NCBI RefSeq assembly: GCF_003253995.1
Contig: NZ_QKZL01000003.1
Coordinates: forward strand, 186,001 to 250,000
DNA from: Palleronia aestuarii
Lineage (GTDB): Bacteria; Pseudomonadota; Alphaproteobacteria; Rhodobacterales; Rhodobacteraceae
Direction of reading: 5' to 3'
Length of the DNA: 64,000 nucleotides
Shown here: piece after piece, positions 21,537 to 38,941 of the stretch
How the letters are laid out: each line of letters begins with the position of its first letter
Position numbering within the stretch: position 1 is the stretch's first letter
Position numbers and translations under genes: made by a program
The notes under the pieces: model-generated
Told to the model about the DNA's origin: nothing
Seen by the model: only the letters and a program-made list of their open reading frames with translations
The model's database searches: none

Positions 21537-23561
21537 TTGACCAATCCCCTCCTCGACGACTGGACCACGCCTTACGAGATGCCGCCGTTCGACCGGATCG
21601 AAGACGACGACTTCGCACCCGCGCTCGACGCGGCGCTCGAGGAGGCCCGCGCCAATGTCGCGGCGATGGCGGGGAATACGGAGGCGCCGTCCTTCGCGAA
21701 CACGATCGAGGCGCTGGAGCGCGCGGACGAGACGCTGGGACGGGTTCTGTCGGTCTTCTACAATCTCGCTGGCGCGGACAGCAATCCGGAGCGCGAGGCG
21801 TTGAGCCGTGATTTCTCTCCCAAGCTTTCCGCCTATTCCTCGGAAGTGTCGATGAATGCCGAGCTCTTCGCGCGGATCGAGGCGGTCTGGAACACGCGCG
21901 AGACGCTCGATCTCTCAGAGGAGCAGATGCGGCTCCTGACGCTCACCCGCCGGTCCTTCGTCCGGCGCGGTGCGGAGCTCGAAGGTTTCGCGAGGGACCG
22001 TCTCGCGGAGGTCACACGGCGACTTTCGAGCCTCGGCGTTGAGTTCGGGCAGAACCTGCTCGCCGACGAACGGGCGTGGTTCATGGAGCTCGCCGAGGGG
22101 GATCTGGAAGGACTTCCCGATTTTCTCGTCGAGGCGGCCCGTGCCGCAGGCAAGGAGAAGGGGGTGGACGGTCCCGCGATCACGCTCTCGCGTTCGCTCA
22201 TCGTGCCGTTCCTGCAATTCTCGCCCCGCCGCGACCTGCGCGAGCAGGCCCATGCCGCCTGGACGGCACGCGGCGCCAATGGCGGCGAGACCGACAATCG
22301 CGACATCGCGACCGAGATCCTGGCGCTGCGCGAGGAACGTGCGGGACTTCTGGGATACGACAGCTTCGCCGAGTTCAAGCTCGAGCCGGAAATGGCCAAG
22401 ACGCCCGAGGCGGTGCGCGATCTCCTGATGAAGGTCTGGGAACCGGCGCGGGCGGCGGCGGAGGCGGATCAGATCCGGCTGACCGCGATGATGCACAAGG
22501 ACGGGGTGAACGGCGATCTCGAACCCTGGGACTGGCGCTACTACTCGGAGAAGCGGCGCGAGGAGGAGCACGACCTCGATGAGGCCGAGTTGAAGCCCTA
22601 CCTGCAGCTCGACCGGATGATCGAGGCCGCGATGGCCTGCGCCCACCGCCTCTTCGGCCTCGAGTTCCGGCGAGTGGAGGTACCGCTCTACCACCCGGAT
22701 GTCCGTGCTTGGGAGGTGACGCGGGACGGGCGGCACATGGCCGTCTACCTCGGCGACTATTTCGCACGTGGATCGAAGCGCTCCGGGGCCTGGTGTTCCG
22801 CCATCCGGTCACAGCAGAAGCTCGCGGGCGACATCCGGCCCGTCGTCGTCAACGTCTGCAACTTCGCGCGTCCCGCAGAAGGGCGGCCTGCGCTTTTGAG
22901 CTACGACGACGCCCGCACGCTCTTCCACGAGTTCGGCCATGCGCTGCACCAGATGCTGTCCGACGTCACCTACGAGAGCCTGAGCGGCACGTCCGTCGCG
23001 CGGGATTTCGTGGAACTGCCGAGTCAGCTCTACGAGCACTGGCTGGAAGTGCCTGAGGTATTGTCGGAATTCGCGACCCATGCGCAAACGGGTGAGCCGA
23101 TGCCGCGTGATCTCCTCGACCGGCTGCTCGCGGCGAACACCTACGACACGGGGTTCCAGACGGTCGAATACGTTGGCTCCGCCCTCGTCGATCTGGAGTT
23201 CCACGCGGGCGAAGCGCCGGAGGATCCGATGGAGGAACAGGCGCGCATCCTGGAAGATATCGGGATGCCGAAGGCCGTGGGGATGCGGCACGCGACGCCC
23301 CATTTCGCCCATATCTTCACCGGGGACGGCTATTCGTCGGGCTATTACAGCTACATGTGGTCGGAGGTGATGGACGCCGACGCCTTCGCGGCGTTCGAAG
23401 AGGCGGGCGGTCCCTTCGATCCGGAAATTGCGCGCAAGCTGGAGGCCCATATTCTTTCGGCCGGCGGGGTCAAGGAAGCGGAAGAGGCCTATACCGATTT
23501 CCGCGGACGCATGCCAGGGGTGGAAGCCCTCCTGAAGGGCCGTGGCCTGATCGACGCCTGA
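21537..23561 (+). CDS. M3 family oligopeptidase (oligopeptidase A / Dcp type)
   Basis: A 674-residue cytoplasmic zinc metallopeptidase of the M3A family. The active site is LFHEFGHALHQML, with HExxH at residues 464-468. Other typical stretches are NPLLDDWTTPYEMPPFDRIEDDDFAPAL at the N-terminus and GYSSGYYSYMWSEVMDADAFAAFEEAG near the C-terminus, where substrate-binding Tyr residues lie. It degrades short peptides. Initiation is at TTG 21537, after GGAGTTCCTCC. Oligopeptidase A and dipeptidyl carboxypeptidase cannot be separated by eye. Confidence 0.9.
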   Translation: MTNPLLDDWTTPYEMPPFDRIEDDDFAPALDAALEEARANVAAMAGNTEAPSFANTIEALERADETLGRVLSVFYNLAGADSNPEREALSRDFSPKLSAYSSEVSMNAELFARIEAVWNTRETLDLSEEQMRLLTLTRRSFVRRGAELEGFARDRLAEVTRRLSSLGVEFGQNLLADERAWFMELAEGDLEGLPDFLVEAARAAGKEKGVDGPAITLSRSLIVPFLQFSPRRDLREQAHAAWTARGANGGETDNRDIATEILALREERAGLLGYDSFAEFKLEPEMAKTPEAVRDLLMKVWEPARAAAEADQIRLTAMMHKDGVNGDLEPWDWRYYSEKRREEEHDLDEAELKPYLQLDRMIEAAMACAHRLFGLEFRRVEVPLYHPDVRAWEVTRDGRHMAVYLGDYFARGSKRSGAWCSAIRSQQKLAGDIRPVVVNVCNFARPAEGRPALLSYDDARTLFHEFGHALHQMLSDVTYESLSGTSVARDFVELPSQLYEHWLEVPEVLSEFATHAQTGEPMPRDLLDRLLAANTYDTGFQTVEYVGSALVDLEFHAGEAPEDPMEEQARILEDIGMPKAVGMRHATPHFAHIFTGDGYSSGYYSYMWSEVMDADAFAAFEEAGGPFDPEIARKLEAHILSAGGVKEAEEAYTDFRGRMPGVEALLKGRGLIDA

Positions 23562-23746
23562 TCGGGCGGGCTTCGACGCGCCGGCGATCTCCGTCGTTGC
23601 GGGGCGTCGGGCCGGGGTCGTGCGCCGATGCATTTCGGGCGACGGCGCGCCTCACTCCGCCGCGCGTGAAACGGCACAGGTAATCCCGGATCATGCGCAT
23701 TTTGGCGTTGCAAACCGCCGGGTCATTATTTACGCCCACCCGTGAC

Positions 23747-23823
23747 GCGCTGGTAGCTCAGTTGGATAGAGTATCTGACTACGAATCAGAGGGTCGGGGG
23801 TTCGAATCCTCCCCAGCGCGCCA
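23747..23823 (+). tRNA. tRNA-Arg (anticodon ACG)
   Basis: A full 77-base cloverleaf with encoded CCA. The acceptor arm GCGCTGG (23747-23753) pairs with CCAGCGC (23813-23819), the anticodon stem-loop is TCTGA-CTACGAA-TCAGA with anticodon ACG at 23781... read as positions 23781-23783, and the T-arm contains GGTTCGAATCC. Its 3' end is the integration site of the downstream element, and the element restores the tRNA sequence exactly. Confidence 0.97.
23809..23823 (+). other. attL: tRNA-Arg 3' end serving as element attachment core
   Basis: The 15 bases CTCCCCAGCGCGCCA at the tRNA 3' end recur exactly and in the same orientation at 38927-38941. The sequences diverge on the right side immediately after CCA. 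The integrase gene lies just inside this end, as is usual for tRNA-targeting tyrosine recombinases. The two copies bound an element of about 15.1 kb. Confidence 0.9.
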
Positions 23824-23989
23824 CTACCTTCCGCGAAGCATTGGTATCACTGGCTTCTTGGTTGGTTTTGTCTAAGGCAGATTGGGCCTTAGACAATTTA
23901 CGGCGTCCCGAAGGATGCTTCCCAGTCGCTTCTCTCCTCATGCCCCTGCGAAATTTCATCGAGGTGTCGCCGAAGTGACACGCGGCAGA

Positions 23990-24019
23990 AAGCAAAAGGG
24001 CCGCACCAAGTGCGGCCCT
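23990..24019 (-). terminator. Rho-independent terminator of the integrase gene
   Basis: A perfect 9-bp stem (GGGCCGCAC at 23998-24006 with GTGCGGCCC at 24010-24018) and 3-base loop. Read on the minus strand it is followed by CTTTTGCTTT. It lies about 20 bp past the integrase stop and before the tRNA. Confidence 0.8.
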
Positions 24020-24037
24020 CTTCGGATGCTTGGACGC

Positions 24038-25114
24038 TCATTCTTTCAAAAACTTGCCGGTCTCAAGCGCGGAGGGTTCAGGGCTGAGAAGCCGCCGCCG
24101 TTCGGCGCGCTTCGTGTAGCGCTCGATTTCCTTCAGCGTCTCATGTCCGCTCCACGCAGCGATCTGATGAATGTTCGCGCCACGCTCGGCATGAAGAATC
24201 ATCCGGCTCTTCCGTAGCCCGTGAGACGTTTTCCCCGCAGGGACGTTGGCCATTTGAGCCCTTTCCGAGAACCACTGCGAGGCGCCCTTGCGGGACCGAG
24301 GTTTGCCATGCACCGTCAACATAAAGGTTTCGGTGCGTTCTCCCATGGCGGCGATCGCGAGGCGAAGATGCTCGAGATCTTCTGCTACCGCGAACTTCGG
24401 CAACCCTCTGTCGAATGGCACCGAGACCTCACTATTGGTCTTCTCTTGGATGAAGACAAGCCAACCATCGTCATCGACGTTCTTAGGGCCAAGACCGACG
24501 GTGTCCGAGATCCGGGAACCGGCCCAGTATTGCAGCTCGAAGGCTATGCGTTCCTCGGTGCCATATTCCCAGCGAGAGCGATATTTGGAGATATCCGAGA
24601 AAGTCCAAGGAAGGTACCCTTGAGTGGCCTCTACCTTTAGCTTCTTCACCCCTTCGGTGGGCTTCGTGATGATCAGACGCCGCCCGAGCGCGAATTCTCC
24701 AAGAGCGCTCCACGACTTGAGGCGCTCGTTTGCTGGATTTCGCTCCATGCTATCCATCTGGTGTCGGATGTGTTCGGGGCGCACGCTGGCGAAAGCGACC
24801 CTGCCGACGGCGCCATCGTTCACTGCCAGAAGCCGCATCATGTCGCGGCGTCGGACGTCCCGGTAGGACTCTGAAAGGCCCTTGAAGGAGTGCGAGCGCA
24901 GATACTGTGCGACGATATCGGCAACAGAATTCGGCTTTACAAGCTCCACGACCTTAGGCGGCTTGGCTGCCCCTTGATTGCAGGCTGCGAGGTAGGCGGC
25001 CAGGAAGTCTGGGTGGTCCTCGGGAAGATGGGCTGGCAACTGACTTCCCGTGGCGCGGTGGTAGACGTACTTGATGCCGCCGCTTTCGTATCGCTTCAGG
25101 CCTTTCAGTTTCAT
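24038..25114 (-). CDS. Tyrosine recombinase / integrase of the tRNA-Arg element
   Basis: A 358-residue phage-type integrase expected to recombine attL and attR. The N-terminal arm- and core-binding part includes VADIVAQYLRSHSFKGLSES. The catalytic domain shows the first Arg in YWAGSRISDTVGL, the beta-hairpin Lys region in FIQEKTNSE, H-x-x-R in TSHGLRKSR, and the late His and nucleophile Tyr in AAWSGHETLKEIERYTK. All catalytic positions are present, so it looks functional. Its ATG overlaps the stop of the excisionase-like gene by 4 bp, and its 3' end faces the tRNA attachment site with a terminator between. Confidence 0.92.
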   Translation of the reverse strand: MKLKGLKRYESGGIKYVYHRATGSQLPAHLPEDHPDFLAAYLAACNQGAAKPPKVVELVKPNSVADIVAQYLRSHSFKGLSESYRDVRRRDMMRLLAVNDGAVGRVAFASVRPEHIRHQMDSMERNPANERLKSWSALGEFALGRRLIITKPTEGVKKLKVEATQGYLPWTFSDISKYRSRWEYGTEERIAFELQYWAGSRISDTVGLGPKNVDDDGWLVFIQEKTNSEVSVPFDRGLPKFAVAEDLEHLRLAIAAMGERTETFMLTVHGKPRSRKGASQWFSERAQMANVPAGKTSHGLRKSRMILHAERGANIHQIAAWSGHETLKEIERYTKRAERRRLLSPEPSALETGKFLKE

Positions 25115-25368
25115 GCTGCTGCCTGGTTTGGCGTCATGCCGAACGCTGCCGCCGCCTTGTCGTTGGTTTCGATCTCGCATGTCTTTTCTCCGTTGTATTC
25201 GAGGCGATCGGCGTAGTCGTCGAGATCGCGGAGGTCCCAGAGCCGGTTTCCGCCGGACCTTTTCGATTGCAGGTCAAGACTGCGAAACTTGCTCTCGGAC
25301 ACGCCGAGGTATCTTGCAGCTTCACGTGCCTGCATCAGGCGCGGTGCATAGCCGTAGCTCTGGGACAT
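25111..25368 (-). CDS. Excisionase-like HTH (MerR/AlpA-type) DNA-binding protein
   Basis: An 85-residue protein with a winged-helix excisionase signature at its N-terminus: LMQAREAARYLGVSESKFRSLDLQSKRSGGNRLWDLRDLDDYADRL. This matches the helix-turn-helix plus wing of AlpA/Xis-type proteins that bend attachment DNA and direct excision. The ATG at 25368 has GGGAGAG about 6 bases upstream. It sits directly before the integrase with an ATGA overlap, the usual xis-int arrangement. Confidence 0.8.
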   Translation of the reverse strand: MSQSYGYAPRLMQAREAARYLGVSESKFRSLDLQSKRSGGNRLWDLRDLDDYADRLEYNGEKTCEIETNDKAAAAFGMTPNQAAA

Positions 25369-25725
25369 CAGCACTCTCCCCGGGAGGCGATGATGCGCGA
25401 CAGGCAAGGAAGGCGATCGGAGCTTTCAGCCCGACAGCTCTTCTTGAATATGCGCTCCATTTTCCCCTCCACCGATCGGGTTGGTTGGTCGATCGAGAGC
25501 GGCTTGCCGCTCTCGGGAGGGAGATCGGTTCAGCGGCAGATAACGATTGGATTTCCCTTCTTGGGGTACACCCCCGTTATCGGTGGCCGATCGGCGTCAA
25601 GAGGCGTGTCGATGGAGCAGCAGCAAGGAGATGGGTGTCGACACGCCCGCTCACGGTGATCCAGCCGTGAGCTTGGGTCTTGCGACCCTCAAGACGCGGC
25701 ACCCCACGTGGGGCACCGCGGATCT
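25369..25725. other. Non-coding stretch with five consecutive inverted repeats
   Basis: No convincing gene is seen. Five inverted repeats follow each other: 25495-25514 (GAGAGCGGC/GCCGCTCTC, 2-base loop); 25539-25545 with 25575-25581 (GATAACG/CGTTATC); 25603-25612 with 25638-25647 (GGCGTGTCGA/TCGACACGCC, perfect 10 bp); 25649-25656 with 25665-25672 (GCTCACGG/CCGTGAGC); and 25696-25719, centred on the palindrome CCCCACGTGGGG at 25702-25713. The last lies just past the stop of the minus-strand gene at 25726 and may end it, though no T-run follows. The region could be an origin, a regulatory zone or a structured RNA. Confidence 0.55.
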
Positions 25726-26196
25726 TTATCGGTGAATCAGGTTTCCAGCCTCTCGCATGGCGTCGAGCGCAGAAATGGTCGCGAGGACGAGGTTCGACAG
25801 AAGGTCGAGTTCTCCGATCACTTTGCCGAGCGTTCGCGCGGCGGGATCGACATGAAGCACCTCGTAGCCGCCTCTTACGTGATCAGCGTCGCCGTGCCAG
25901 GATGTGTAGGTGCCCGCGTCTACCCGGTCTTGGAGCGTTGCCCTGAGGGCATCGACCTCGTCCAGAATGCTCAGCGAAAAGAGCCGCCGACGATCAAGCC
26001 GACCGACAAAGGTTCGGGCGATGGCGCGCCGTTCTGGCGGCAGATGCGGGATCACGACGTCGTGGACCTGTGTCGTGACGATATGGGCCTGCATCAAAGC
26101 GATGGCTGCTATCCGCGTAACGAGATTTTCGGTCATCTCCGTATCTGCGATGAGATTGACCAGCGTCGGGAAGTGCTTGAGAGGACTCGGCATCAT
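25726..26196 (-). CDS. Element-encoded protein of unknown function (156 aa)
   Basis: I do not recognise this protein. It is mostly helical by composition, soluble, without signal peptide or obvious catalytic motif. It begins MMPSPLKHFPTLVNLIADTEMTENLVTRIAAIALMQAHIV and has an acidic/basic middle (HLPPERRAIARTFVGRLDRRRLFSL). Its start overlaps the stop of the next gene upstream by 4 bp (ATGA), which argues that both are real and translated together. The pair sits between the excisionase and the relaxase on the mobile element. Confidence 0.6.
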   Translation of the reverse strand: MMPSPLKHFPTLVNLIADTEMTENLVTRIAAIALMQAHIVTTQVHDVVIPHLPPERRAIARTFVGRLDRRRLFSLSILDEVDALRATLQDRVDAGTYTSWHGDADHVRGGYEVLHVDPAARTLGKVIGELDLLSNLVLATISALDAMREAGNLIHR

Positions 26197-26585
26197 GCGG
26201 CGGCCCTCCCCGCGACGCCCTCTTGGCAGGACGTCAGAGCCTCTTCGAGGCCGTCCGCGAGCAAGCAGATGTCTTCGACGACAGGGCTTGCTGGATCGAT
26301 CAGCGCGAACTGGGCAGCTTCGATCCGCGACGGATCGTGAACGTGCTCGAGCATGAGAAGGTCGAGCAGACCGGCGAGCGCTCTCATTGTGCTGCGCGTC
26401 GGTAGCTGCGGCGCGGCCACGCCGTCCAGCGCCGCTTGAGCGAGGCGCAGACCGGGTGTGGCACCCAGCAATTCCGCGGCCGCGAAGAGGCCTTCGCGAT
26501 GCTCCTCGACGAAGCCTCTAAGCTCGTCGAAGGCGTCCGATGACGCAAAACCGGTGTGCTCGGATGGTGGGGTGAAATCGAACAT
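26193..26585 (-). CDS. Element-encoded protein of unknown function (130 aa)
   Basis: An unrecognised 130-residue protein, acidic and helix-rich (FDELRGFVEEHREGLFAAAELLGATPGLRLAQAALDGV, then DICLLADGLEEALTSCQEG). No membrane segment and no known motif is visible. It is the first gene of a two-gene unit with the 156-residue protein and is transcribed away from the relaxase. A promoter would have to lie in the hairpin-rich region upstream; AGGGAGATCCTCTC precedes the ATG at 26585 (minus strand) and can supply a ribosome site. Confidence 0.6.
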   Translation of the reverse strand: MFDFTPPSEHTGFASSDAFDELRGFVEEHREGLFAAAELLGATPGLRLAQAALDGVAAPQLPTRSTMRALAGLLDLLMLEHVHDPSRIEAAQFALIDPASPVVEDICLLADGLEEALTSCQEGVAGRAAA

Positions 26586-26673
26586 GAGAGGATCTCCCTC
26601 GGGGTTTCCGGATCAGGTCCGGGTCAAGCAGTGTTCGATCTTCTCTCTCAGTCCTGTGTCTCTCTTTCCCCTC

Positions 26674-26729
26674 GGTGCATCATTCAGTTTCGGCTCTCGG
26701 AGAGAGGAGCCGAAACGGAATGATGCACC
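26674..26729. repeat. Large 23-bp inverted repeat in the mobilization region
   Basis: The left arm at 26674-26696 (begins GGTGCATCATTC, ends TTTCGGCTC) pairs with the right arm at 26707-26729 with one mismatch in 23 and a 10-base spacer. It lies between the divergent gene at 26585 and the relaxase. It may be an operator, part of oriT, or a single-strand origin. Confidence 0.75.
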
Positions 26730-26872
26730 CCGCCCGTGCTACTGCGCGCGTCATTCCTCCCGGCCGAAGGCATCGCGATGTGGCCTTGGCGCTCGGCGCC
26801 GTCATGTCGGGAGAGGTCGAGGAGAGGGCCTGCCCTTTCCTCGCCGGGGCCGGGGAGGCCCGAGCAGCGGGG

Positions 26873-26908
26873 GGCCGGGGGGAGAGTGCGGAACGACTCC
26901 CCCCGGCC
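26873..26908. repeat. Perfect 12-bp GC-rich inverted repeat
   Basis: GGCCGGGGGGAG at 26873-26884 is exactly complementary to CTCCCCCCGGCC at 26897-26908, separated by 12 bases. It is part of the multi-hairpin region (26586-27146) upstream of the relaxase. No T-run follows on either strand, so a terminator is unlikely. Confidence 0.7.
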
Positions 26909-27034
26909 GCCGGAGGCGCGGGAGTGCGCGCAGCGAGCTTCCGTTGGCCGTCCGCCCAGGACCGCCTCCCCGGCGCAAGGGGCCCTCGGAGAGCCGCGCG
27001 TAGTGAGCCCCTGGAGGGGGGCGTCTCGCACTAC

Positions 27035-27079
27035 GCATAGTCGGACACTATGCCTGATACGCGCGCCTGCGGCGCGCGT
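27035..27079. other. Candidate origin of transfer (oriT) upstream of the MobV-like relaxase
   Basis: On the minus strand 27053-27035 reads GCATAGTGTCCGACTATGC: 7-bp arms and a 5-base loop. The MobV prototype oriT (pMV158) is a small hairpin nicked in its loop at TAGTGTG/TT, and the TAGTGT half is present here. A second hairpin, ACGCGCGCC/GGCGCGCGT at 27059-27079, adjoins it. The site lies about 95 bp before the relaxase start, where MobV elements usually have oriT. This is inference from position and partial motif similarity. Confidence 0.45.
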
Positions 27080-27146
27080 CGCAGACATTCCCGGAGGGGC
27101 ACCCTTTTTACCTATTTCCCCGTCGCCTCGAACAAAGGAGATGGCG

Positions 27147-28907
27147 ATGGAAGGATATCAATTCGCGCGCCTGGAGACGTTTTCCGTCCAAGGCGCACCC
27201 GGCAGCAAGCCGACGAAGATACGTAAGAACGGCGCGCGGGCATGGACCGCCGAGGAGGTTCTTCGGGAAGCGGAGCGTCATCCCATGGCCTCACTGCACG
27301 TGAACCCCGGTTGCCCGCCGCCGCAGATACTTCCTGGCACGGTGGGATCGTTCGCAGCTGTGCGGGCCGAGCATGCCAAGGCTGCGGCCGCGAAGGAATC
27401 CTACATGCGGAAGGGCAAGGACGGGAAAAAGAAAAAGGCCTGGCGGAAGCTGCGATCAGATGCCCGGACGCTCTATTCCTCCGTCGTCTCGCTTCCGACA
27501 CTTACGCGCGACGCACTCGCTGATCCGGCTCTCGCCGCCGACTGCGTCGCGCTTCTCACCGAGGCGATGCAGCACGAGCAGAAGACCTTGGCAGCTCGCG
27601 GAGGTGTGCTCCTGATGGGGGTGATCCACTGGGATGAGGAACATGTCCATGCGCACTATCTCGCCGTCGCGCCTCAGGCTGGACGGGCCGACGGCCTGCA
27701 TCCTGGACATGCTGCGAAGGCCGTTTTCAATGCTGCCCATGTCGATGCCGATGGCACAGATAGGAAAGCTGTCGGACATGGGGCGAACAGGGCTTACTGC
27801 GAGGCCATGCGCGGCTGGCAGGACTCGTTTCATGAGGAGGTCTTCGAAGGGGCCGGACTTCTCCGGTATGGGCCGAAGCGCCATCGGTTGAGCCGGGCGG
27901 ACTACCAGAAGGCGAAGGCCGCGAAAGCCCAGCAGGCTGAAGACGCTAAGCGCAGCAAGATCTTGGCGATTGAGATCTCTGGCCAGGAAGAGCAGCTCGC
28001 CGCAATTGTGAAAGAAGCCGCCGAGAGCGCGCGACACCTCGCGCGTGAGAAGGCCTCGATGGCTGGAGACAAGGTGGACCTCTTGGTCCGCGAGCATGAA
28101 GTCGCTTCGTTGACCGTTCAAGCACGCGAGGAGATCTCGCGCGGCCGGTCGGTCGCTTCGACCGCAGAGGCACGGATCAGGGCGCTGAATGTCGGGACAC
28201 GGGCGATCGAGGAGCGCCAGATAGATTACCGGCCAGGGGATCGGGACCGCCGGGAGGGCCTTACTTTCGGACCCGCAGCACCTGCCGACAAGAAGGAGCG
28301 TGGCAAGCTCAAGGAGGCGATCCGGCCGGCCTTCGACGTGTTGGTCAGCTTTGCCAGACGGGTTTTCCGTCTCCGTCAGCGAGAGGAAGCCCATGCGGAA
28401 CTGGAAGCGGAGAGCGAGCGACGGGCTCGCAAACGGGACCGTCAGGATGCCGAGACGCGACGCCGCGCCGGGGTCGTTGCGGCGGCCCTCAGAAGCGATG
28501 GGCAATCGGTACCGGCACCTCTCGAGGCGGTAGCTGCTGGCGAGCCGCTGATCATGTCCGAGGCGAGCTTTCCTGGAGCATGGTCGATCTCGCCGGAGGC
28601 GAAGCCGGATGAGATCCGGGAACGCCTCAATGCTACGACCAATCTCCAGCTACGCACGGCGTGGCAGGCAACCCGGGACGCGGTTGAGCTGGTCGAGAAT
28701 AACACATCTCTGCGAGATCGCTTCGCACTCGGCGTGCGTGTCATCGAAGCGAATGCGGACGATCGGGGGGTGGACCTGGAAAGTGGTCAGCAGAACCTCG
28801 ATACAGCCAAGCGCCCCGAGGTCGCTGCATTGCACCGCGACGAGTTCCTTGGGCCTATAAGGGTCGCCAATGCGGCCAAGGAGCGCCAGCGGGTTCGCGG
28901 ATCATGA
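27147..28907 (+). CDS. MobV-like (Pre/Mob family) relaxase
   Basis: A 586-residue mobilization protein expected to nick oriT and lead the strand into a recipient. Motif I lies at the N-terminus (YQFARLETFSVQG). The metal-binding motif III is VIHWDEEHVHAHYLAVAP, giving H161-x-D-E and H166-x-H168-x-H170, very close to the MobV consensus HxDExxPHxH. The C-terminal half is long, charged and coiled-coil-like (KAKAAKAQQAEDAKRSK, REEAHAELEAESERRARKRDRQDAETRR). ATG 27147 is chosen because AAAGGAG sits 6 bases before it; ATG 27141 abuts that site. The catalytic nucleophile cannot be fixed by eye. Confidence 0.8.
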   Translation: MEGYQFARLETFSVQGAPGSKPTKIRKNGARAWTAEEVLREAERHPMASLHVNPGCPPPQILPGTVGSFAAVRAEHAKAAAAKESYMRKGKDGKKKKAWRKLRSDARTLYSSVVSLPTLTRDALADPALAADCVALLTEAMQHEQKTLAARGGVLLMGVIHWDEEHVHAHYLAVAPQAGRADGLHPGHAAKAVFNAAHVDADGTDRKAVGHGANRAYCEAMRGWQDSFHEEVFEGAGLLRYGPKRHRLSRADYQKAKAAKAQQAEDAKRSKILAIEISGQEEQLAAIVKEAAESARHLAREKASMAGDKVDLLVREHEVASLTVQAREEISRGRSVASTAEARIRALNVGTRAIEERQIDYRPGDRDRREGLTFGPAAPADKKERGKLKEAIRPAFDVLVSFARRVFRLRQREEAHAELEAESERRARKRDRQDAETRRRAGVVAAALRSDGQSVPAPLEAVAAGEPLIMSEASFPGAWSISPEAKPDEIRERLNATTNLQLRTAWQATRDAVELVENNTSLRDRFALGVRVIEANADDRGVDLESGQQNLDTAKRPEVAALHRDEFLGPIRVANAAKERQRVRGS

Positions 28908-28947
28908 CGAGAGATGCCGAGACGGTGGCGTCTCGGCATCTCCACTA

Positions 28948-29643
28948 TCACGCTGCATCCTGTTCGTCGTCGGGATCATCTACTTGCTCCGCGCCGCCGT
29001 CATCGTTTTGCCCGACGATCCGGTCGTCGCCGGAGTCGGGAAATAGAGACATTTGACTGTCGTCCTTCACGGCAGGCGCCGCGGAGCTCTCTTCGTTGGA
29101 TGCGTGACTGTTGCCCTGCGAGGCGAACTCCTCCCGCCCAAGGAGACGACCTTCGAGTTTCGCGATGAGGACCTTGGCGTCCATGAGCTCTGCCGTAAGC
29201 GAAGCGACCCTCTCCTCAGCCTGTTGCGCGCGTTCCCCGGCGGCCTCTGCCTCGGCGACGGCACTGTCACGCTCGTCCTCGACCAGCCCGATATTGTCGA
29301 GGACCTCCGCTTTTTCCTCTTCGACCTCGGCGAGCTGGCTGGCGTGGGCGCGCCGTTCGATAGCCGCTGCCTCGTCGGCGCAGCGCCAGGCTGCCTCCCA
29401 AGCGGAGGCATAGAGGTCAATCACCTCTTCGGGCATCTCGGGGGCCGCGCGCGATGCTTCGGCCGCGGCCTTCTGTTCAGCGAGGACGATCTTCACGATT
29501 GGCCCGATGTCTCGGAACGATCCCTTCGTGATCTCCCGCACGGCGGCGTTGGTCGGCTTTTCGCCCTTCGCCTGGATGTCGGCGACGGCCTTGCGCACCT
29601 TCTTCTCGAGGGCGGCGTTGGTCTTCTTCGTAGCTTCGGTCAT
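28948..29643 (-). CDS. KfrA-like DNA-binding coiled-coil protein
   Basis: A 231-residue protein. Residues about 10-55 (LEKKVRKAVADIQAKGEKPTNAAVREITKGSFRDIGPIVKIVLAEQ) match the KfrA N-terminal DNA-binding domain of plasmid proteins, in which a helix-turn-helix is followed by a long alpha-helical coiled coil. Here the coil spans about 85-180 (EVEEEKAEVLDNIGLVEDERDSAVAEAEAAGERAQQAEERVASL). The tail is acidic (DDEQDAA). KfrA proteins repress their own promoter and help plasmid maintenance. Start 29643 begins at MTEATKK. It converges on the relaxase gene. Confidence 0.75.
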   Translation of the reverse strand: MTEATKKTNAALEKKVRKAVADIQAKGEKPTNAAVREITKGSFRDIGPIVKIVLAEQKAAAEASRAAPEMPEEVIDLYASAWEAAWRCADEAAAIERRAHASQLAEVEEEKAEVLDNIGLVEDERDSAVAEAEAAGERAQQAEERVASLTAELMDAKVLIAKLEGRLLGREEFASQGNSHASNEESSAAPAVKDDSQMSLFPDSGDDRIVGQNDDGGAEQVDDPDDEQDAA

Positions 29644-29783
29644 TCTTGGCACCTGCTCGGGTAATGGTAAGCGCCGGTAATACCGTCTCGGCGCTACCAC
29701 CCCGTCCCGAGGTGGCAGGAAGAATGTCGGATCGTCGGTCGAAGGTCGGAAACGCGACAGTCAGAAAAGTTGGTATTCTGCGC

Positions 29784-30701
29784 TCAAACGCTGTCGAACC
29801 ATGAGCCGTCGATGCGAACCCGTTCGACCATCTCGGTCGCGACTCCAAGCCCGTTCTCCTTGAGCAGGTCGCACAGACGGTCTCCGTCGATGAGGTCGAT
29901 GGCGATGGCGCCGTCCCTGGTCGCTTCATCGGTCGCGGCCGGGGTGTAGTGGCTCGTGGTGATGAAAAGCCCCTTATCGGCCCGTCCCTGAAGGGCCCCG
30001 CGGAAGTCGCGGATTTCCTTCGCGCCGACGCTGCCTCTCCAGCGCTTGCACTGGAAGTAGACCTGGAACGAGACGAGGTTCACGCGCAGGACGCCGAGCC
30101 CGTCGATGCCGCCGTCGCCGGTCTTTCCGCGGACCTCGACCTTGGTGAAGCCAGCCTCGCGCAGGAGACGCTGGGACAGTCTCTCGAAGGCATCTGGCGC
30201 CATAGACCCGAGGACGGAGAGCAGCGCGGTTTTCCAGTCCTCTTCGTCCGCCGGCCCAGCATCCGCGTCTGCGATAACGACATCCGCATCGCCGGAAACT
30301 TCGGCCGCTTCCTTGGCCTTGCGTTTTTGCCGCGCCTTCTCGCGTTCTTCGGCCTGAACGGTCTCGACGATGGCAGCCGCGGGTGCGCGATCGTGGATGG
30401 CGCTGCCGGCCTCGGTAATCGCCCAGACGCCACGTGCGGAGTTCTCGACGGCACCGCCGCGCCGAAGGTAGGTGCGCGCCCAAGCGAGGTAGTAGTTCAC
30501 CTTCAGGCGTTGATCATTGTTCGGCATCGGGATCGCCTGCTCGGCCTCCGACAAGCCCTCGAGCTCGATGACGGTCTCGTCGATCTCCTGGATGCTGCCC
30601 GACCCGCCGAGGTGCCGAAGGGCGTCGAGAGTGGCGACCATCATGCCAGCGAGATCCGGCAACCCCTCGGGCTCGATGATGAAGCGGCGATCAGATGGCA
30701 T
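29784..30701 (-). CDS. Mrr-type restriction endonuclease
   Basis: A 305-residue protein. The N-terminal winged-helix Mrr_N-like region includes LDALRHLGGSGSIQEIDETVIE and LAWARTYLRRGGAVENSARGVWAITEAG. A charged linker (REKARQKRKAKEAAE) follows. The C-terminal PD-(D/E)xK-type nuclease domain shows ERLSQRLLREAGF, GKTGDGGIDGLGV and the Q-x-K core in FQVYFQCKRW, then GLFITTSHYT. Mrr enzymes cut DNA carrying particular methylation. Its start overlaps the stop of the large methyltransferase gene by 11 bp, so the two are one operon. An alternative ATG lies at 30713. Confidence 0.88.
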   Translation of the reverse strand: MPSDRRFIIEPEGLPDLAGMMVATLDALRHLGGSGSIQEIDETVIELEGLSEAEQAIPMPNNDQRLKVNYYLAWARTYLRRGGAVENSARGVWAITEAGSAIHDRAPAAAIVETVQAEEREKARQKRKAKEAAEVSGDADVVIADADAGPADEEDWKTALLSVLGSMAPDAFERLSQRLLREAGFTKVEVRGKTGDGGIDGLGVLRVNLVSFQVYFQCKRWRGSVGAKEIRDFRGALQGRADKGLFITTSHYTPAATDEATRDGAIAIDLIDGDRLCDLLKENGLGVATEMVERVRIDGSWFDSV

Positions 30702-33700
30702 AGCGGCCCTCATCAGTCATTTCGGCCATGCCGAGGCCTGCCAGCGTCTCGAGCAGCGGGGCGACCGTGGTGGCGCGGCCGCGGGCGAAGGTGCGGGCGA
30801 CGGTTTCGGCGTCGGCCTCTCCGAGATCCTCCAACGCCTCGCAGACGGCGGCGATCTGAGCGGGGAGCGACTTCGGCCAGGGGGCCTTGCCGGTCTTGGC
30901 GGCGGCGGCGATCTCCAGCTTGCCTTGCTTCGCCTCGGCGGCGAGGCCGTCGGGGTTCTGGTAATCGGGGCGGAGCCAGCGGACATGGCCGCGCGCTTCC
31001 TCGGCGGCGCGTTCGTGGTTGAGGGCCACGAGGTTCATCAGGAGGTCGTTCTCGGAGAGATCGGCCGGCCAGCCATAGGCCTCGGCCACGGCGGCGTCGA
31101 TCCGGTCGTGGATGTCCTTGAGCAGACCGATCAGCCCGTCCTCGTAGACCTGCTTGTCCTTGCCTTCGATGACCTCGCCCGCGCGGAGTTTTTCGAGGGT
31201 GTTGTACATCTGGGTCAGCGTCAGCTTCGGGTGCTGCGCCTGTCGCTCCTTGCGGTGGGCGTCGAGCTCCTCACCGAGCTGGCGGAGGATGGTGCGTTGC
31301 GTGGGGGTGAGGTCGGGGAACGGAAACTTGTAGAAGCAATCGGCGTGGTTGTAAGTCGGGTCATTGCCCACACCAAGCCAGCCCCCTGCTGCCAAAGCCC
31401 AGACTGTGTGCTGTCGAGAGGATAGAACCGCCAGTTCTTCGGCTCTATCAATGGTAATCGCAACGACCTTGCTCTCGTGGAGTATATCTTCCGGGAGGAA
31501 CTGGAACACACGGTGACGTGCGGTTCTCGTTGTTGCGATATATCGTTTCAGTCCCGAGAAGGCGGGTCGAAAAGTGCTTATCGGTTCCCCGAAAAGCCAC
31601 CAATTTCGCCGACGCCACTCACGCTGGTTCTGGTCGCGCTCAGGCTTCACCGTGTCGGCAACGTGTTGGTAAACCTCCGGAAAACTATGCCTGACTTGAT
31701 CTGAAGTCAGTCCGAAAAGATCGATTACATGAGCATCTCTCGGTTGGCCCGTTAGGTCGCGTCCGTTTCTGAAAGGACGGATGTGATTTTCCAGACCGGG
31801 TCGGATGCCCAAGCCAAGCTCACGGGCTTCATTCTCCGAGACAATGAAGCCCGGACCGTGGAGCTTTACCCCCATGCCTGCGATACGCAGATTAGATTTC
31901 AACGGCACGGCGCTACCGATATCTGCGCCGATCCGTAGGTTCGAGAAGATTAGGCCCATCTCTGTCTTGAGCTCGACATGCCGCCCCTCGGCCTCGTTTC
32001 GCTCACCACTCTCGGAGACCACCGTCACCAGCCGACCCGGTCGACTGCCGGCCGCTGCCACTGTCATGCCGATCCGCACGGCGGCCCCATCCACGGTATC
32101 TACCCACGGGTGGTCCGGGATCGCGAAAAGCAGCGACAGAGGGCGCTTAGCATCGCCAAGGTGCGGCTCCAGGACCCGACGGTTGAACGCCTGACGCAGC
32201 GAGTTCGTTGTGATCAGGCCAAACCTCCGCAACCCGGTCTGGCCGTCATAGGCTCGCGCCTTCAGTGCCGCCTTTTCCCACCAGAACATCACGAGGTCGG
32301 CGCTTTGCGGCATCTTCGGATAGGCCTTCCACAGCGCCTCGACGTAGCCGTCGCCCAGCGCCTCGCGCATACGGCTCGCCCCGATGAAGGGCGGGTTGCC
32401 GACGATGAAGGTCGACTCGGGCCACACCGCCGGCCGGGGATCGGCGTAGTCGTAGATCTGCATCCGCGCCGAGGGGTCCGGCACCTCCTCCCCCGTCGCC
32501 GGGTGGCGCATGGTGGTCGTGCCGTCCCAGCGGGTCACGGGCGCGCCGTTGTCGTCCAGCCGGGGCGTGCGGTTCGTCCACGTGAGCACGGCGTCGCGAT
32601 GTTCGATGTTCTTGAAGTCGCGCAGGATCGGCTCGGAAGGCGCGGCTTTGCCGTGAGTGCGGTAGTGCCATTGCAGGTAGCCGATCCACAGCACCAGCTC
32701 GGCGACGTTGGCGGCCCAGGGGTTCAGCTCGATCCCGAGGAACTGGTGCGGGTCAACGGTGTATCCTGCAAGGCCAAGGTTTGTCTGCGTTTCGCCCAGC
32801 TCCTCCATGGTGGCGACAACCTCGCCTTCGAGGCGCTTCATCAGCTCCAGCGCGACATAGAGAAAATTTCCCGACCCGCAGGCAGGGTCAAGCACCGTGA
32901 CCTCGCAGAGCTGGCGGTGGAAGCCTTGCACCTCGCGCAGCGCTTCCTTTTCCTTGCCCTGGCTGCGCAGCAAATCGGCGGCGGCTTGCACGCTGCGCCA
33001 GTCGGCGCGCAGGGGCTCGATAATTGTCGGCATCACAAGCCGTTCGACATAGGCGCGAGGCGTGTAGTGCGCGCCCAGCTTGTGCCGGCTCTTCTTGTCG
33101 AGCGCGCGTTCCAGCAGGGTGCCAAAGATCGCCGGTTCGACTTGCTTCCAGTCCGCTTCGGCCGCCTCGATCAGCAGGCTAAGCTGCACCTCGTTCAGGG
33201 GCAGCGCCGAAGCGTCGCGGAAGAGCCCGCCGTTGAAGCGGAGGAGCTTCGCCATGAGGACCGTCGAGGTGCCGCCGGTGTTCATCGTCTCCCAGAGCGA
33301 CTGGAGCACCGGCGCGGCCATCTCGGGCTTGCCGCGCAGGTCCCGCAGCTTGTCGCGGAAGGAATCCTTGGGCAGCAGCTCCACATCCTCGGCGAACATG
33401 GTGAAGAGGCAGCGCATGAGGAAACGGGCGACATCCTCTCCCTCATGGCCCTGGCCCTCGAAGCTGCGTCCAAGCTGAGCCAGGTGGTCGGCGATTTCAC
33501 GGGTGACCCGTGCCGCGGTGCGCGAGGGATCGAGAGACAAGGGGTCGGACCAGATGGTCCGCAGACGCTCGCGGACCTCGTCATCCCGGAGATCTTCGAG
33601 TGTGATGCGGTAGCGGTTGCCATCGGGGAACTGAGTGTAGCCCTGTCCTTGGCCGGAGAAGTCGGCGTAGACCTCGATGACATGCGCGACGTCGACGACC

Positions 33701-34134
33701 AGCAGGAATGGTGGCCATCCGTCCTCCTTCGAGATTGCCCGGGCGTAGCCGTCCGCCTGGTTTCGGGCGCGTAGCATCGTATCTTCGAAGCCTCGCGTGC
33801 CTCGGCGACCATGCCCCAGTTGACCCTGGGGGGCGTCCTCAGCCGACAGGAGGCTGAGCTGCTCGGATTCAGCCTTCGGGCCAGCGCCCTGCTTCGCCTC
33901 CATGACGAAACACTGTCGGCGGTAGAGATCTATCCGCCGCCGTCGGCGTGTCCCGGTGTGGGTTTCGGTGACTGGGCGTTCGAAGCGATAGTCGTTTGTC
34001 TGACCATCGCTCTGGGCAGGTTTCGGACGGTCGACCCCGAGTATGTCGCAGAGCTCGGATGCGAAGGTCTGAAAATTCGCGATCTCGCTTCCGCCGGATG
34101 CACGCCACCGCGTAATGAAATCTTCAACTTGCAA
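30691..34134 (-). CDS. MmeI-like fused restriction-modification enzyme (type IIL/IIG)
   Basis: An 1147-residue single-chain R-M protein. The nuclease site near the N-terminus is RRRRIDLYRRQCFVMEAKQ (D69, E79-x-K81). A helical connector follows. The methyltransferase domain has SAM motif I DPACGSGNFLYVALELMK near residue 415 and the adenine-methylation motif IV NPPF near residue 578. The following region to about 960 should hold the target-recognition domain. MmeI itself is about 920 residues, and here the last ~130 residues add a winged-helix-like tail (LPAQIAAVCEALEDLGEADAETVARTF...). It both methylates and cuts, so it needs no separate specificity subunit. Start 34134 fits the family; the primase-like frame overlaps it by 205 bases. 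Confidence 0.88.
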   Translation of the reverse strand: MQVEDFITRWRASGGSEIANFQTFASELCDILGVDRPKPAQSDGQTNDYRFERPVTETHTGTRRRRRIDLYRRQCFVMEAKQGAGPKAESEQLSLLSAEDAPQGQLGHGRRGTRGFEDTMLRARNQADGYARAISKEDGWPPFLLVVDVAHVIEVYADFSGQGQGYTQFPDGNRYRITLEDLRDDEVRERLRTIWSDPLSLDPSRTAARVTREIADHLAQLGRSFEGQGHEGEDVARFLMRCLFTMFAEDVELLPKDSFRDKLRDLRGKPEMAAPVLQSLWETMNTGGTSTVLMAKLLRFNGGLFRDASALPLNEVQLSLLIEAAEADWKQVEPAIFGTLLERALDKKSRHKLGAHYTPRAYVERLVMPTIIEPLRADWRSVQAAADLLRSQGKEKEALREVQGFHRQLCEVTVLDPACGSGNFLYVALELMKRLEGEVVATMEELGETQTNLGLAGYTVDPHQFLGIELNPWAANVAELVLWIGYLQWHYRTHGKAAPSEPILRDFKNIEHRDAVLTWTNRTPRLDDNGAPVTRWDGTTTMRHPATGEEVPDPSARMQIYDYADPRPAVWPESTFIVGNPPFIGASRMREALGDGYVEALWKAYPKMPQSADLVMFWWEKAALKARAYDGQTGLRRFGLITTNSLRQAFNRRVLEPHLGDAKRPLSLLFAIPDHPWVDTVDGAAVRIGMTVAAAGSRPGRLVTVVSESGERNEAEGRHVELKTEMGLIFSNLRIGADIGSAVPLKSNLRIAGMGVKLHGPGFIVSENEARELGLGIRPGLENHIRPFRNGRDLTGQPRDAHVIDLFGLTSDQVRHSFPEVYQHVADTVKPERDQNQREWRRRNWWLFGEPISTFRPAFSGLKRYIATTRTARHRVFQFLPEDILHESKVVAITIDRAEELAVLSSRQHTVWALAAGGWLGVGNDPTYNHADCFYKFPFPDLTPTQRTILRQLGEELDAHRKERQAQHPKLTLTQMYNTLEKLRAGEVIEGKDKQVYEDGLIGLLKDIHDRIDAAVAEAYGWPADLSENDLLMNLVALNHERAAEEARGHVRWLRPDYQNPDGLAAEAKQGKLEIAAAAKTGKAPWPKSLPAQIAAVCEALEDLGEADAETVARTFARGRATTVAPLLETLAGLGMAEMTDEGRYAI

Positions 34135-35678
34135 TACCCGTCTCCCCGTTGGAGATCAGATTGCACGCAAGGGCTTGAATCAACAATGCCATCTCGAGGG
34201 CGATTTGCGCAGGGAATGCGAATATCATGCGTTTCCGCTTCGTCGCCGGACGGTTGCGGCGGCGTGGCTGGTGGCTGGTGCGGGGGCAGAATAGCTGAGG
34301 AGCGGGGCTCCTCAGCTTGCGCCTTCGGCAAGGCATAGCCCCCCTGTAGCGGGCACGGACCAGTCTCATCGTACCGGCTCGACTCTTGGCTATCAGCAAC
34401 GATGCCTGCCCGTTTCCTTCTGAAGAAGGTGCTCCGGGAGATTCCGAGCGCGACCCAAGGCTGCCGCCGTTCCTGATCGTTCTTCTCCAGCCACTCATTG
34501 CGGGCGGTGGCTCCGGCATCATGCCGGCGTGCGCGCTGTCTGCGCGCTTTGCGACGCGCGCGCTCTTCCGGAGGCATGATCTGTTCCAGCCCGAGAGCTT
34601 CGGATGTCCGCCCGGAGATGCCGAGCAGTTCTGCGATCATAGCTCCGGAGTAGTGATAGCGGCCGTCGCGTAGGGGGGCGGTGGATCTCGGAAGTTCCGC
34701 CTGGCGACTGGCAAGCTTCGCTACGGCCCTCACCTCCGCGGCCGGCAGGAACGGTGTCGCCGAGGCCGCTGCTGCCATGACCCTCTGCTCGACTTCGGCC
34801 GGCGTCGAAGTATGCGACAGGCTCGTAGCGAAGAGGTGCAGCCAAGTGTTTCGGAAGCCCTCAGGGACTCTGCCGCCCCAAGCGCAACAAATGCGCTCCA
34901 GATCACGCTGAACGGCACGAAACTTGGCCCGCGGCGTTAGGCCGCCGGGTGTCTGTTTGATTCCGGCTTTCTTCTTCTTGGTCGCTTCCTTGTTGGATCG
35001 TAGCTGCTCACGCGTTGGCCGTCCTGCGGCAAGATAAATCGCATCTGCCAAGGCGTCGAAGAAGTAGCGGCGCAGAGAACCGCCAATAACTGCGGCTTCC
35101 TTTCCACTCTTCGAATTGATCGACCCGGGTAGGCGCGTGATGCGGGCGGCATCCCGGCGCGACGGGTCCGCACCATGGACACGAAAAAGCGCGATCAGAG
35201 CATCTTGCGCTGCCTGCCAGCGAGGTAGCGCTCGGGCCGGCATCTCATCGATCAACCAGATCGCTCCCAGCCCTCGCCCGGTGAAAAGCAGGATACTCGG
35301 TTCCGGCAAGCCAAGTTCAGAAGCCCTTGCACTGATTGCGGAAGCCCAACGACCTGTGTCCGCCGGTCGACTCGGAACGCGATCGATGTCAAGATCGAGG
35401 AAGAGGCCGTTGAGAGCTGCGAGTCGATGCCCTGAGCGTGGTCCATGGAAGCGATGCAACGTGATGTATGCGTCGTAGTCGAGCAAGGGTTCGATCCATC
35501 GCGGCGCATCCTCGACCGAGTAGGTCTTCGTAAAGATCCGGTCTCGGCAAGCCTTTACCATGATCGATGTCTTGCCGACGGAACCAGGAGTGTGGAGAAT
35601 CCGCACGTAGTCCGCCGGTGAAAGGGTATTGCCGACGGGAGTGTGTATATCGAGAATTGAAGGGGCAAAGTGTTCCAT
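33930..35678 (-). CDS. Primase-like replication protein of the element (archaeo-eukaryotic-primase type)
   Basis: A 582-residue frame. The N-terminal half has a primase-like core: LAALNGLFLDLDIDRVPSRP with the paired acidic residues D-x-D, ILLFTGRGLGAIWLIDEMP, and ARITRLPGSINSKSG with a nucleotide-binding pattern as in RepB'-like and RepA-type replication primases of mobile elements. A later helix-turn-helix (QPWVALGISRSTFFRRKRAGI) may bind DNA. It probably supports replication after excision. The last ~68 codons run out of frame through the start of the methyltransferase gene and are low-complexity (RPSHPSSATYSGSTV), so the native C-terminus may have been lost when the restriction cassette was acquired. 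Confidence 0.65.
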   Translation of the reverse strand: MEHFAPSILDIHTPVGNTLSPADYVRILHTPGSVGKTSIMVKACRDRIFTKTYSVEDAPRWIEPLLDYDAYITLHRFHGPRSGHRLAALNGLFLDLDIDRVPSRPADTGRWASAISARASELGLPEPSILLFTGRGLGAIWLIDEMPARALPRWQAAQDALIALFRVHGADPSRRDAARITRLPGSINSKSGKEAAVIGGSLRRYFFDALADAIYLAAGRPTREQLRSNKEATKKKKAGIKQTPGGLTPRAKFRAVQRDLERICCAWGGRVPEGFRNTWLHLFATSLSHTSTPAEVEQRVMAAAASATPFLPAAEVRAVAKLASRQAELPRSTAPLRDGRYHYSGAMIAELLGISGRTSEALGLEQIMPPEERARRKARRQRARRHDAGATARNEWLEKNDQERRQPWVALGISRSTFFRRKRAGIVADSQESSRYDETGPCPLQGGYALPKAQAEEPRSSAILPPHQPPATPPQPSGDEAETHDIRIPCANRPRDGIVDSSPCVQSDLQRGDGYCKLKISLRGGVHPAEARSRIFRPSHPSSATYSGSTVRNLPRAMVRQTTIASNAQSPKPTPGHADGGG

Positions 35679-38627: not shown

Positions 38628-38926
38628 TCAACCTAAACATAGAGAGAGTGCCATCTCTGCGACCCGTAGAGGCGAGCGTTGAGACACTATCGTCCGACTA
38701 TGCCCGTCGCGGACATGGGAGCCGAGGCTGACGATGCCTGCGCGATCCTTGGTCAGGGCCTTGGCATTCCGCGGTCGAACTCTCGTTGCCTTCAGTCAAG
38801 AGAGGCCTTGACAGTTTTCGTGCGCCGGATGGTTAGACATAGACCCAACTAAGCCATTGCGAAGCATAGGGCCGATATTTTGTCTAATATCCTATAAGGC
38901 ATTGAAAATAAAAGATTTGGGAAGTT
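38628..38926. other. Right end of the element, no gene seen
   Basis: No convincing coding frame. Two points are visible: the 12-mer GTCCGACTATGC at 38692-38703, identical to one half of the candidate oriT hairpin, and an AT-rich run (GCATTGAAAATAAAAGATTTGG, around 38899-38920) just inside the attachment core, which could serve integrase-arm or host-factor binding. Confidence 0.4.
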
Positions 38927-38941
38927 CTCCCCAGCGCGCCA
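38927..38941 (+). other. attR: 15-bp duplicate of the tRNA-Arg 3' end
   Basis: CTCCCCAGCGCGCCA repeats 23809-23823 exactly and in the same orientation. Only the 3' tail of the tRNA is present, not a second tRNA, which is the pattern left by tRNA-targeted integration. It marks the right boundary of the element. Confidence 0.9.

Follow-up and report, generated by a model that had tools for sequence, protein, structure and literature searches.

In pMV158, as described in excerpts of PMC5863519, the first inverted repeat of the origin of transfer (IR1) stands 8 nt before the cut and is followed by the spacer ATAGTGTG/TT, a second inverted repeat (IR2) encloses the cut without its extrusion having been detected there, and the relaxase, MobM (MOBV1), cuts DNA through a histidine. 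The pMV158 record included in the present analysis (L063) carries the same spacer, with the cut on the mob-coding strand. A chromosomal counterpart is the streptococcal integrative and mobilizable element (IME) IMESag-rpsI, which has a single MOBV-type relaxase (MobSag, MOBV1) whose gene is immediately preceded by an oriT (excerpts of PMC5090054). Proteobacterial MOBV relaxases with a predicted oriT upstream of mob are found in MOBV2 modules, e.g. those of pBBR1 and of the Paracoccus plasmids pMARC4, pMOS2, and pAES1.

Here, we describe a site in a 64-kb stretch of DNA, referred to as the window, that is very probably the origin of transfer of a 15-kb IME residing in a tRNA-Arg gene, where it would be read and cut by the element's own MOBV-like relaxase (Table 1). 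The assignment draws on conservation, geometry, covariation, a predicted protein fold, an end repeat, and type IV genes elsewhere in the genome. With pMV158 the site shares an IR1 standing 8 nt before the (predicted) cut, a spacer opening with ATAGT, a G before the cut, an IR2 that encloses the nick, and a position upstream of mob on the coding strand, and its relaxase shares the HUH motif and, by prediction, the fold of MobM. It differs from pMV158 in having a longer IR1 loop, GC-rich leader hairpins, and an alphaproteobacterial integrative element as its carrier; in its relaxase clade, which appears to read ExxR where MobM reads HxxR; and in its core, which is TAGTGTG/T in pMV158 and TAGTCGG/T in the clade (with A after the cut in the window). 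Instead of the MOBV1 nic core GTGTG/TT (or GTGCG/TT), the window reads TAGTCGG/A and 42 of 46 relatives read AGTC[GT]G/T. IMESag-rpsI differs in its core (GTGCG/T), its HxxR relaxase, its insertion in rpsI rather than in a tRNA gene, and its Gram-positive host (excerpts of PMC5090054). The TAGTCGG core is not described in excerpts of PMC5703827 and PMC9791958. We regard site and relaxase as a distinct variant of the known MOBV transfer system.

Table 1. Features of the element and of its putative origin of transfer (positions refer to the window).
Feature	Position	Strand	Remarks
tRNA-Arg(acg)	23747-23823	+	left end repeat = its final 15 bases (23809-23823)
Tyrosine integrase	24038-25180	-	PF00589, E 6e-14
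Two small hypothetical ORFs	25726-26196, 26193-26585	-	second has a relative in 5/30 loci
Leader hairpin	26859-26922	+	conserved loop GAGTGCGGAACGA at 26884-26896
Interrupted palindrome GGCCCTCGGAGAGCC	26981-26995		just 5' of IR1; in most closer relatives (alignment, by eye)
IR1, probable relaxase recognition repeat	26998-27005 (GCGTAGTG), 27029-27036 (CACTACGC)	+	loop of 23; covarying arms in relatives
IR2, the hairpin noted in the initial annotation	27035-27053		arms 7/7; predicted nick in loop
Nic core ATAGTCGG/ACAC	27037-27048 (ATAGTCGG, 27037-27044)	+	core in 46/49 relatives
GC hairpin adjoining oriT	27059-27079		9-bp arms
MOBV-like relaxase P0001	27141-28907	+	588 aa
KfrA_N-domain protein	28948-29700	-	relative near mob in 12/30 loci
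Mrr-like endonuclease (cargo)	29784-30713	-	
MmeI-like restriction-modification protein (cargo)	30691-34134	-	adjoins the Mrr-like nuclease
Primase/replication-like protein	33930-35678	-	weak matches
HalA/HalB-like pair (Hailong anti-phage system)	36283-37179, 37187-38050	+	E 7e-14 and 5e-15; below NCBIfam curated cut-offs
Right end repeat CTCCCCAGCGCGCCA	38927-38941	+	exact copy of 23809-23823

Because the 3' end of the tRNA-Arg gene recurs as an exact 15-bp copy at the right end, the element measures 15.1 kb. It has the parts expected of an IME, namely an integrase, a tRNA end repeat, and a relaxase with an oriT, and no type IV secretion genes of its own: none of these gene families was found among the 10 element proteins scanned, and VirB4 and coupling-protein families are encoded on other contigs of the genome. 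A look-up in 11 congeneric genomes, in which the matches to the left and right flanks lie apart from each other, revealed neither an empty site nor an excised circle. Of 20 homologous loci scanned, 11 have a tRNA gene within the fetched stretch. The HalA/HalB-like pair sits in a low-GC patch of the element, and a strong inverted repeat (26674-26729; arms of 23 nt, 96% complementary, 10-nt spacer) separates the leader from the small genes that run leftward. Near the right end, a second ATAGTCGGAC (minus strand, 38692-38701) stands within GCATAGTCGGAC, as it does in the oriT; counts of the motif are not above chance, a search for an inverted repeat there found none, and its presence is possibly fortuitous.

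Conservation was assessed in the upstream DNA of relaxase relatives from family genomes and elsewhere. Before counting, we excluded L009 (truncated), L031 (the second piece of one gene), and six redundant loci from genomes already represented (L033, L036, L038, L040, L042, and L046). A first count covered 52 upstream regions, or 47 once five ‘group D’ loci (L010, L011, L012, L015, and L016) are omitted. Among the 47, the motif [ACT]AGTC[GT]G is present on the mob-coding strand in 42 (on average 7.6 and at most 16 in 100 shuffled sets). In 37, it is accompanied by an inverted repeat with its right arm ending 7-10 nt short of the cut (on average 1.5 and at most 6 in the shuffled sets). The opposite strand has the core in 6/47 and core plus inverted repeat in 3/47. 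In a second count of 49 loci, with four plasmids added and L057 and L060 (both without the N-terminus) left out, [ACT]AGTC[GT]G followed by TC or AC is present on the plus strand upstream of 46 of the related relaxases, although these core counts are not independent events because close relatedness is common among the loci. In L053 and L058, the core is found on the minus strand, where it is likewise preceded by an inverted repeat (computed for L058, by eye for L053), and no core was found in the upstream region of L028. The same core precedes mob in four of five plasmid-record relatives (L062, L066, L067, and L068) and is absent in L065.

IR1 is conserved along with the core, which usually lies 8-9 nt after the right arm of this repeat. 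In the window, IR1 pairs at 8/8 positions and stands 8 nt before the predicted cut; in the relatives, this gap is 8 nt, or 9 in one subgroup, with a few best fits differing. IR1 arms that pair at 7/8 positions or better come in 14 distinct combinations, among which every position has changed on both sides. As for IR2, perfect arms of at least 5 surround the predicted cut in 24/46 loci versus 7.8% of background positions, and arms of at least 7 in 7/46 versus 1.5%. A specificity scan for [TA]AGTCGG plus an 8-nt repeat (at least 7 pairs) at a gap of 8-9, run on both strands of 24 loci (416,595 bases), gave 18 matches: 14 lie no more than 650 nt upstream of mob, and 4 lie at other places, 2 of which belong to further mob copies on the contig of L058. 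This Magnetospirillum molischianum contig of 12,147 bases has three mob copies about 4,090 apart and is probably a concatemer of a 4.1-kb plasmid. Applied to the window, the same scan returned three matches: the oriT site (8/8, gap 8) and, with a gap of 9, two occurrences of AAGTCGG that presumably reflect chance. A blastn search with the oriT region against plasmids yielded just one weak match (14%), and in an Rfam scan of 23500-30500 the tRNA alone reached its gathering score, the best intergenic match being to a plant miRNA family (E 0.036, far below the gathering score).

Since core and inverted repeat are conserved beside homologous relaxases, a MOBV-like oriT geometry at this site is, as far as sequence comparison goes, well supported. 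To this extent the initial annotation, which had proposed a MobV-like oriT, was borne out; its strand and nick, however, are not supported, the conserved core being the plus-strand TAGTCGG, and it had overlooked IR1. The conserved signal and its inverted repeat thus probably represent an oriT whose core and predicted nick lie not on the strand named in that annotation but on its complement.

The neighbouring relaxase is MOBV-like by fold and motif III, but the classical HxxR motif is apparently absent. By itself, P0001 has no match in Pfam (E up to 0.1), NCBIfam, PHROGs, or PDB sequences. Among 22 aligned relatives, 16 match PF01076 (Mob_Pre) at E <= 0.01 (the window protein does not even at 0.1) and six match the Relaxase family, and a profile built from the relatives finds MobM at E 1.3e-4. 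A search of phage records for a relaxase relative found none. In comparisons with the AlphaFold model of P0001 (22 sequences; mean pLDDT 82.6, pTM 0.48), the top six structural matches (rank 1-6) are all entries of MobM, the best of them being 4lvj (Z 13.5, rmsd 3.2, 168 residues aligned, model residues 5-244); Foldseek also places MobM at the top, but at E 0.02. P0001 is therefore predicted to have the MobM relaxase-domain fold.

Among 48 relatives (L049, L057, and L060 being left out as incomplete), E43, R46, H53, H163, D165, E166, H170, and H172 are invariant (48/48). Y219 is found in 47, the exception being L028 (F), the very locus that has no core. Motif III (HxDExxPHUH) is represented by H163, D165, E166, H170, and H172, its P being V in the window protein and variable in the clade, and motif II (NYD/EL) is not seen among the near-invariant columns, in a region aligned without confidence. 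At the position of the MOBV1 motif I HxxR (MobM residues 22-25), the protein reads ExxR: E43xxR46 aligned to MobM H22xxR25 in all three hhalign modes (probability 88, low-confidence region), and H22 is the residue that we take to be the MobM nucleophile. Because E43xxR46 falls on H22xxR25 and MobM cuts via a histidine, the alignment suggests that this relaxase clade probably lacks the histidine nucleophile of MobM. We hypothesize that H53 or Y219 replaces it; the change from HxxR to ExxR bears on how the MOBV family cleaves DNA.

The hairpins 5' of IR1 have the loop GAGTG[CG][CG]GAACGA, and leader loops (GAGTGCGGAACGA or GAGTGGCGAACGA) precede two different MOBV oriT types in the family (26859-26922 in the window; L079-L108). 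These leader hairpins may be a single-strand origin, a protein site, or RNA. A pattern based on the loop is present in 27/394 family genomes; 16 leader places were fetched, and six genomes with single matches (L085, L087, L088, L089, L094, and L098) were set aside, their matches looking like chance among the matches listed. A relaxase domain was sought at the 16 places, and none was found at four (L115, L121, L127, and L129). Where a leader accompanies the window-type catalytic domain, [TA]AGTCGG is present in 14/14 loci, and where it accompanies the other MOBV catalytic domain, TANTGAGTA is present in 16/17 (core TAGTGAG/TA), the seventeenth, L123 (= L097), reading AAGTGAGTA; a stray [ACT]AGTC[GT]G also occurs in 3 of these 17 loci (330 nt scanned). 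The other domain defines a second MOBV lineage within the same family, comprising the five group D loci and 12 leader-selected loci, which shares the leader hairpins with the window and differs in its HxxR catalytic domain and TAGTGAG/TA core. The predicted oriT of pMOS2, CTAGTaAGTgc, is closer to this core than to TAGTCGG (excerpts of PMC3832669). The five group D relaxases also have the C-terminal domain in common with the window protein (E 4e-41 to 5e-23), whereas the N-terminal domain is not shared.

As core type changes with catalytic domain among leader-bearing loci, the simplest reading of these sequences is that catalytic domain and nic were replaced together. A broader scenario is conceivable, although we hold it only tentatively and think it somewhat doubtful: a proteobacterial MOBV-like clade would have lost the catalytic histidine (HxxR to ExxR) and would attack via His53 or Tyr219 at a new nic, TAGTCGG/T, with catalytic domain and nic being swapped as a cassette between leader hairpins and, in part, the relaxase C-terminal domain. 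Such naturally swapped domains provide a convenient means of testing which relaxase region reads nic. In the clade, the leader is present at 10/10 loci with the C-terminal domain versus 4/39 without it (49 loci; Fisher p 1.2e-7, not corrected for kinship). As a general rule, an association of leader and C-terminal domain was rejected, because none of 16 leader-picked loci showed the domain in the 1.8-4.2 kb examined. As to a link between leader and primase gene, a primase relative was found in just 2/30 loci.

In the mechanism that we propose, the element's relaxase, encoded 96 nt downstream, would read IR1 (26998-27036) and cut the mob-coding strand 8 nt past it, in the nic core that directly follows the repeat. 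The predicted cut lies between G27044 and A27045 of the plus strand; the relaxase would remain bound to the 5' end and pilot the strand to a recipient via a type IV secretion system supplied in trans. IR2 could place the nick in its loop, and may matter less than IR1 because the pMV158 IR2, too, encloses the cut and yet has no detected extrusion.

Several alternatives deserve consideration. The site could be a decayed and inactive oriT, since the dinucleotide at the predicted cut is GpA, as in just four of 46 loci (the window, L004, L032, and L048; the other 42 have GpT), and since the excision and transfer of the element are matters that we infer. Decay is nonetheless unlikely: IR1 pairs throughout, as does IR2 (7/7), the relaxase frame is intact with all clade-invariant residues, and the GpA form is common to the Poseidonocella relatives L004 and L032.

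Sitting just upstream of mob, the repeats might alternatively do no more than regulate the mob promoter, as an operator or attenuator. Operator and oriT roles can coexist, for in pMV158 there is overlap between oriT and the mob promoters, and MobM acts as the repressor of its own gene (excerpts of PMC5863519). An operator without an oriT is, however, highly improbable here: the core is found anywhere from about -33 to -593 before mob (chance matches being likelier far upstream), lies on the other strand in L053 and L058, occurs in L127 without a relaxase in the next 3.8 kb, and changes along with the type of catalytic domain.

The initial annotation itself had the minus strand nicked in TAGTGT, as in pMV158, on the loop side of a 19-mer hairpin, GCATAGTGTCCGACTATGC. 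That hairpin exists, with 7-nt arms and a 5-nt loop, and so does the second, GC-rich hairpin reported next to it; the distance to the relaxase, put at about 95 bp, is 87 nt when measured from the hairpin to the ATG at 27141. GCATAGTGTCCGACTATGC is unique in the 4.5-Mb genome, with a single match even if 3 mismatches are allowed (0.01 expected). The 552-nt intergenic region folds better, as DNA, than its shuffles (z -4.4 for the plus and -3.8 for the minus strand), with 0/100 shuffles equally good on either strand. Perfect hairpins with arms of at least 7 and loops of 3-8 are not rare, numbering 70 in the window, and the hairpin alone therefore says little; its meaning depends on comparison. 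TAGTGT is identical to the pMV158 nick site over 6 nt, but the next base differs (TAGTGTC here, TAGTGTG in pMV158). When the regions 5' of relaxase homologues are aligned, the plus-strand core and IR1 are kept, but the minus-strand motif is not: it occurs in just 3 of the 47 regions, L002 (= the window), L004, and L032, all close relatives, and was rejected as the nick on this ground. On the plus strand, TAGTGT occurs in one region, L058. Moreover, the window has no IR1 before the minus-strand TAGTGT, and although L053 and L058 do have a core on the strand opposite mob, it reads TAGTCGG. A minus-strand nick accordingly has very little probability. That the site serves relaxase-mediated plasmid recombination (Pre/RSA type) rather than conjugation, as the annotation of relatives as plasmid recombination proteins might suggest, is very improbable, although the present sequences are compatible with both roles; for MobM of pMV158, the same site serves conjugative transfer (excerpts of PMC5863519).

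An oriT cut by its MOBV-like relaxase thus being the preferred reading, its spread is of interest. P0001 has a match at E <= 1e-5 in 29/394 family genomes (the window's own included; five via the C-terminal domain only), and relatives are also found in Rhizobiales, Desulfobulbaceae, and small plasmids of enterobacteria and Aeromonas, i.e. the relaxase-oriT pair is fairly widespread. In PLSDB, 27 of 35 plasmid records with a relaxase relative, small enterobacterial plasmids among them, are typed as non-mobilizable, so this path of gene flow probably goes unnoticed in current plasmid typing.

Such elements can be found with an explicit nic rule (inverted repeat, 8 nt, ATAGTCGG/T), and so can an oriT that stands without a relaxase nearby. 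At L127:360-640, a complete oriT is seen, consisting of leader, palindrome, IR1, and CATAGTCGG/TC; a relaxase domain match was sought in the next 3.8 kb and none was found. L127 could be an orphan oriT that is mobilizable in trans. The neighbouring ORFs, judged by eye, resemble a nuclease, parts of an IS transposase, and an integrase.
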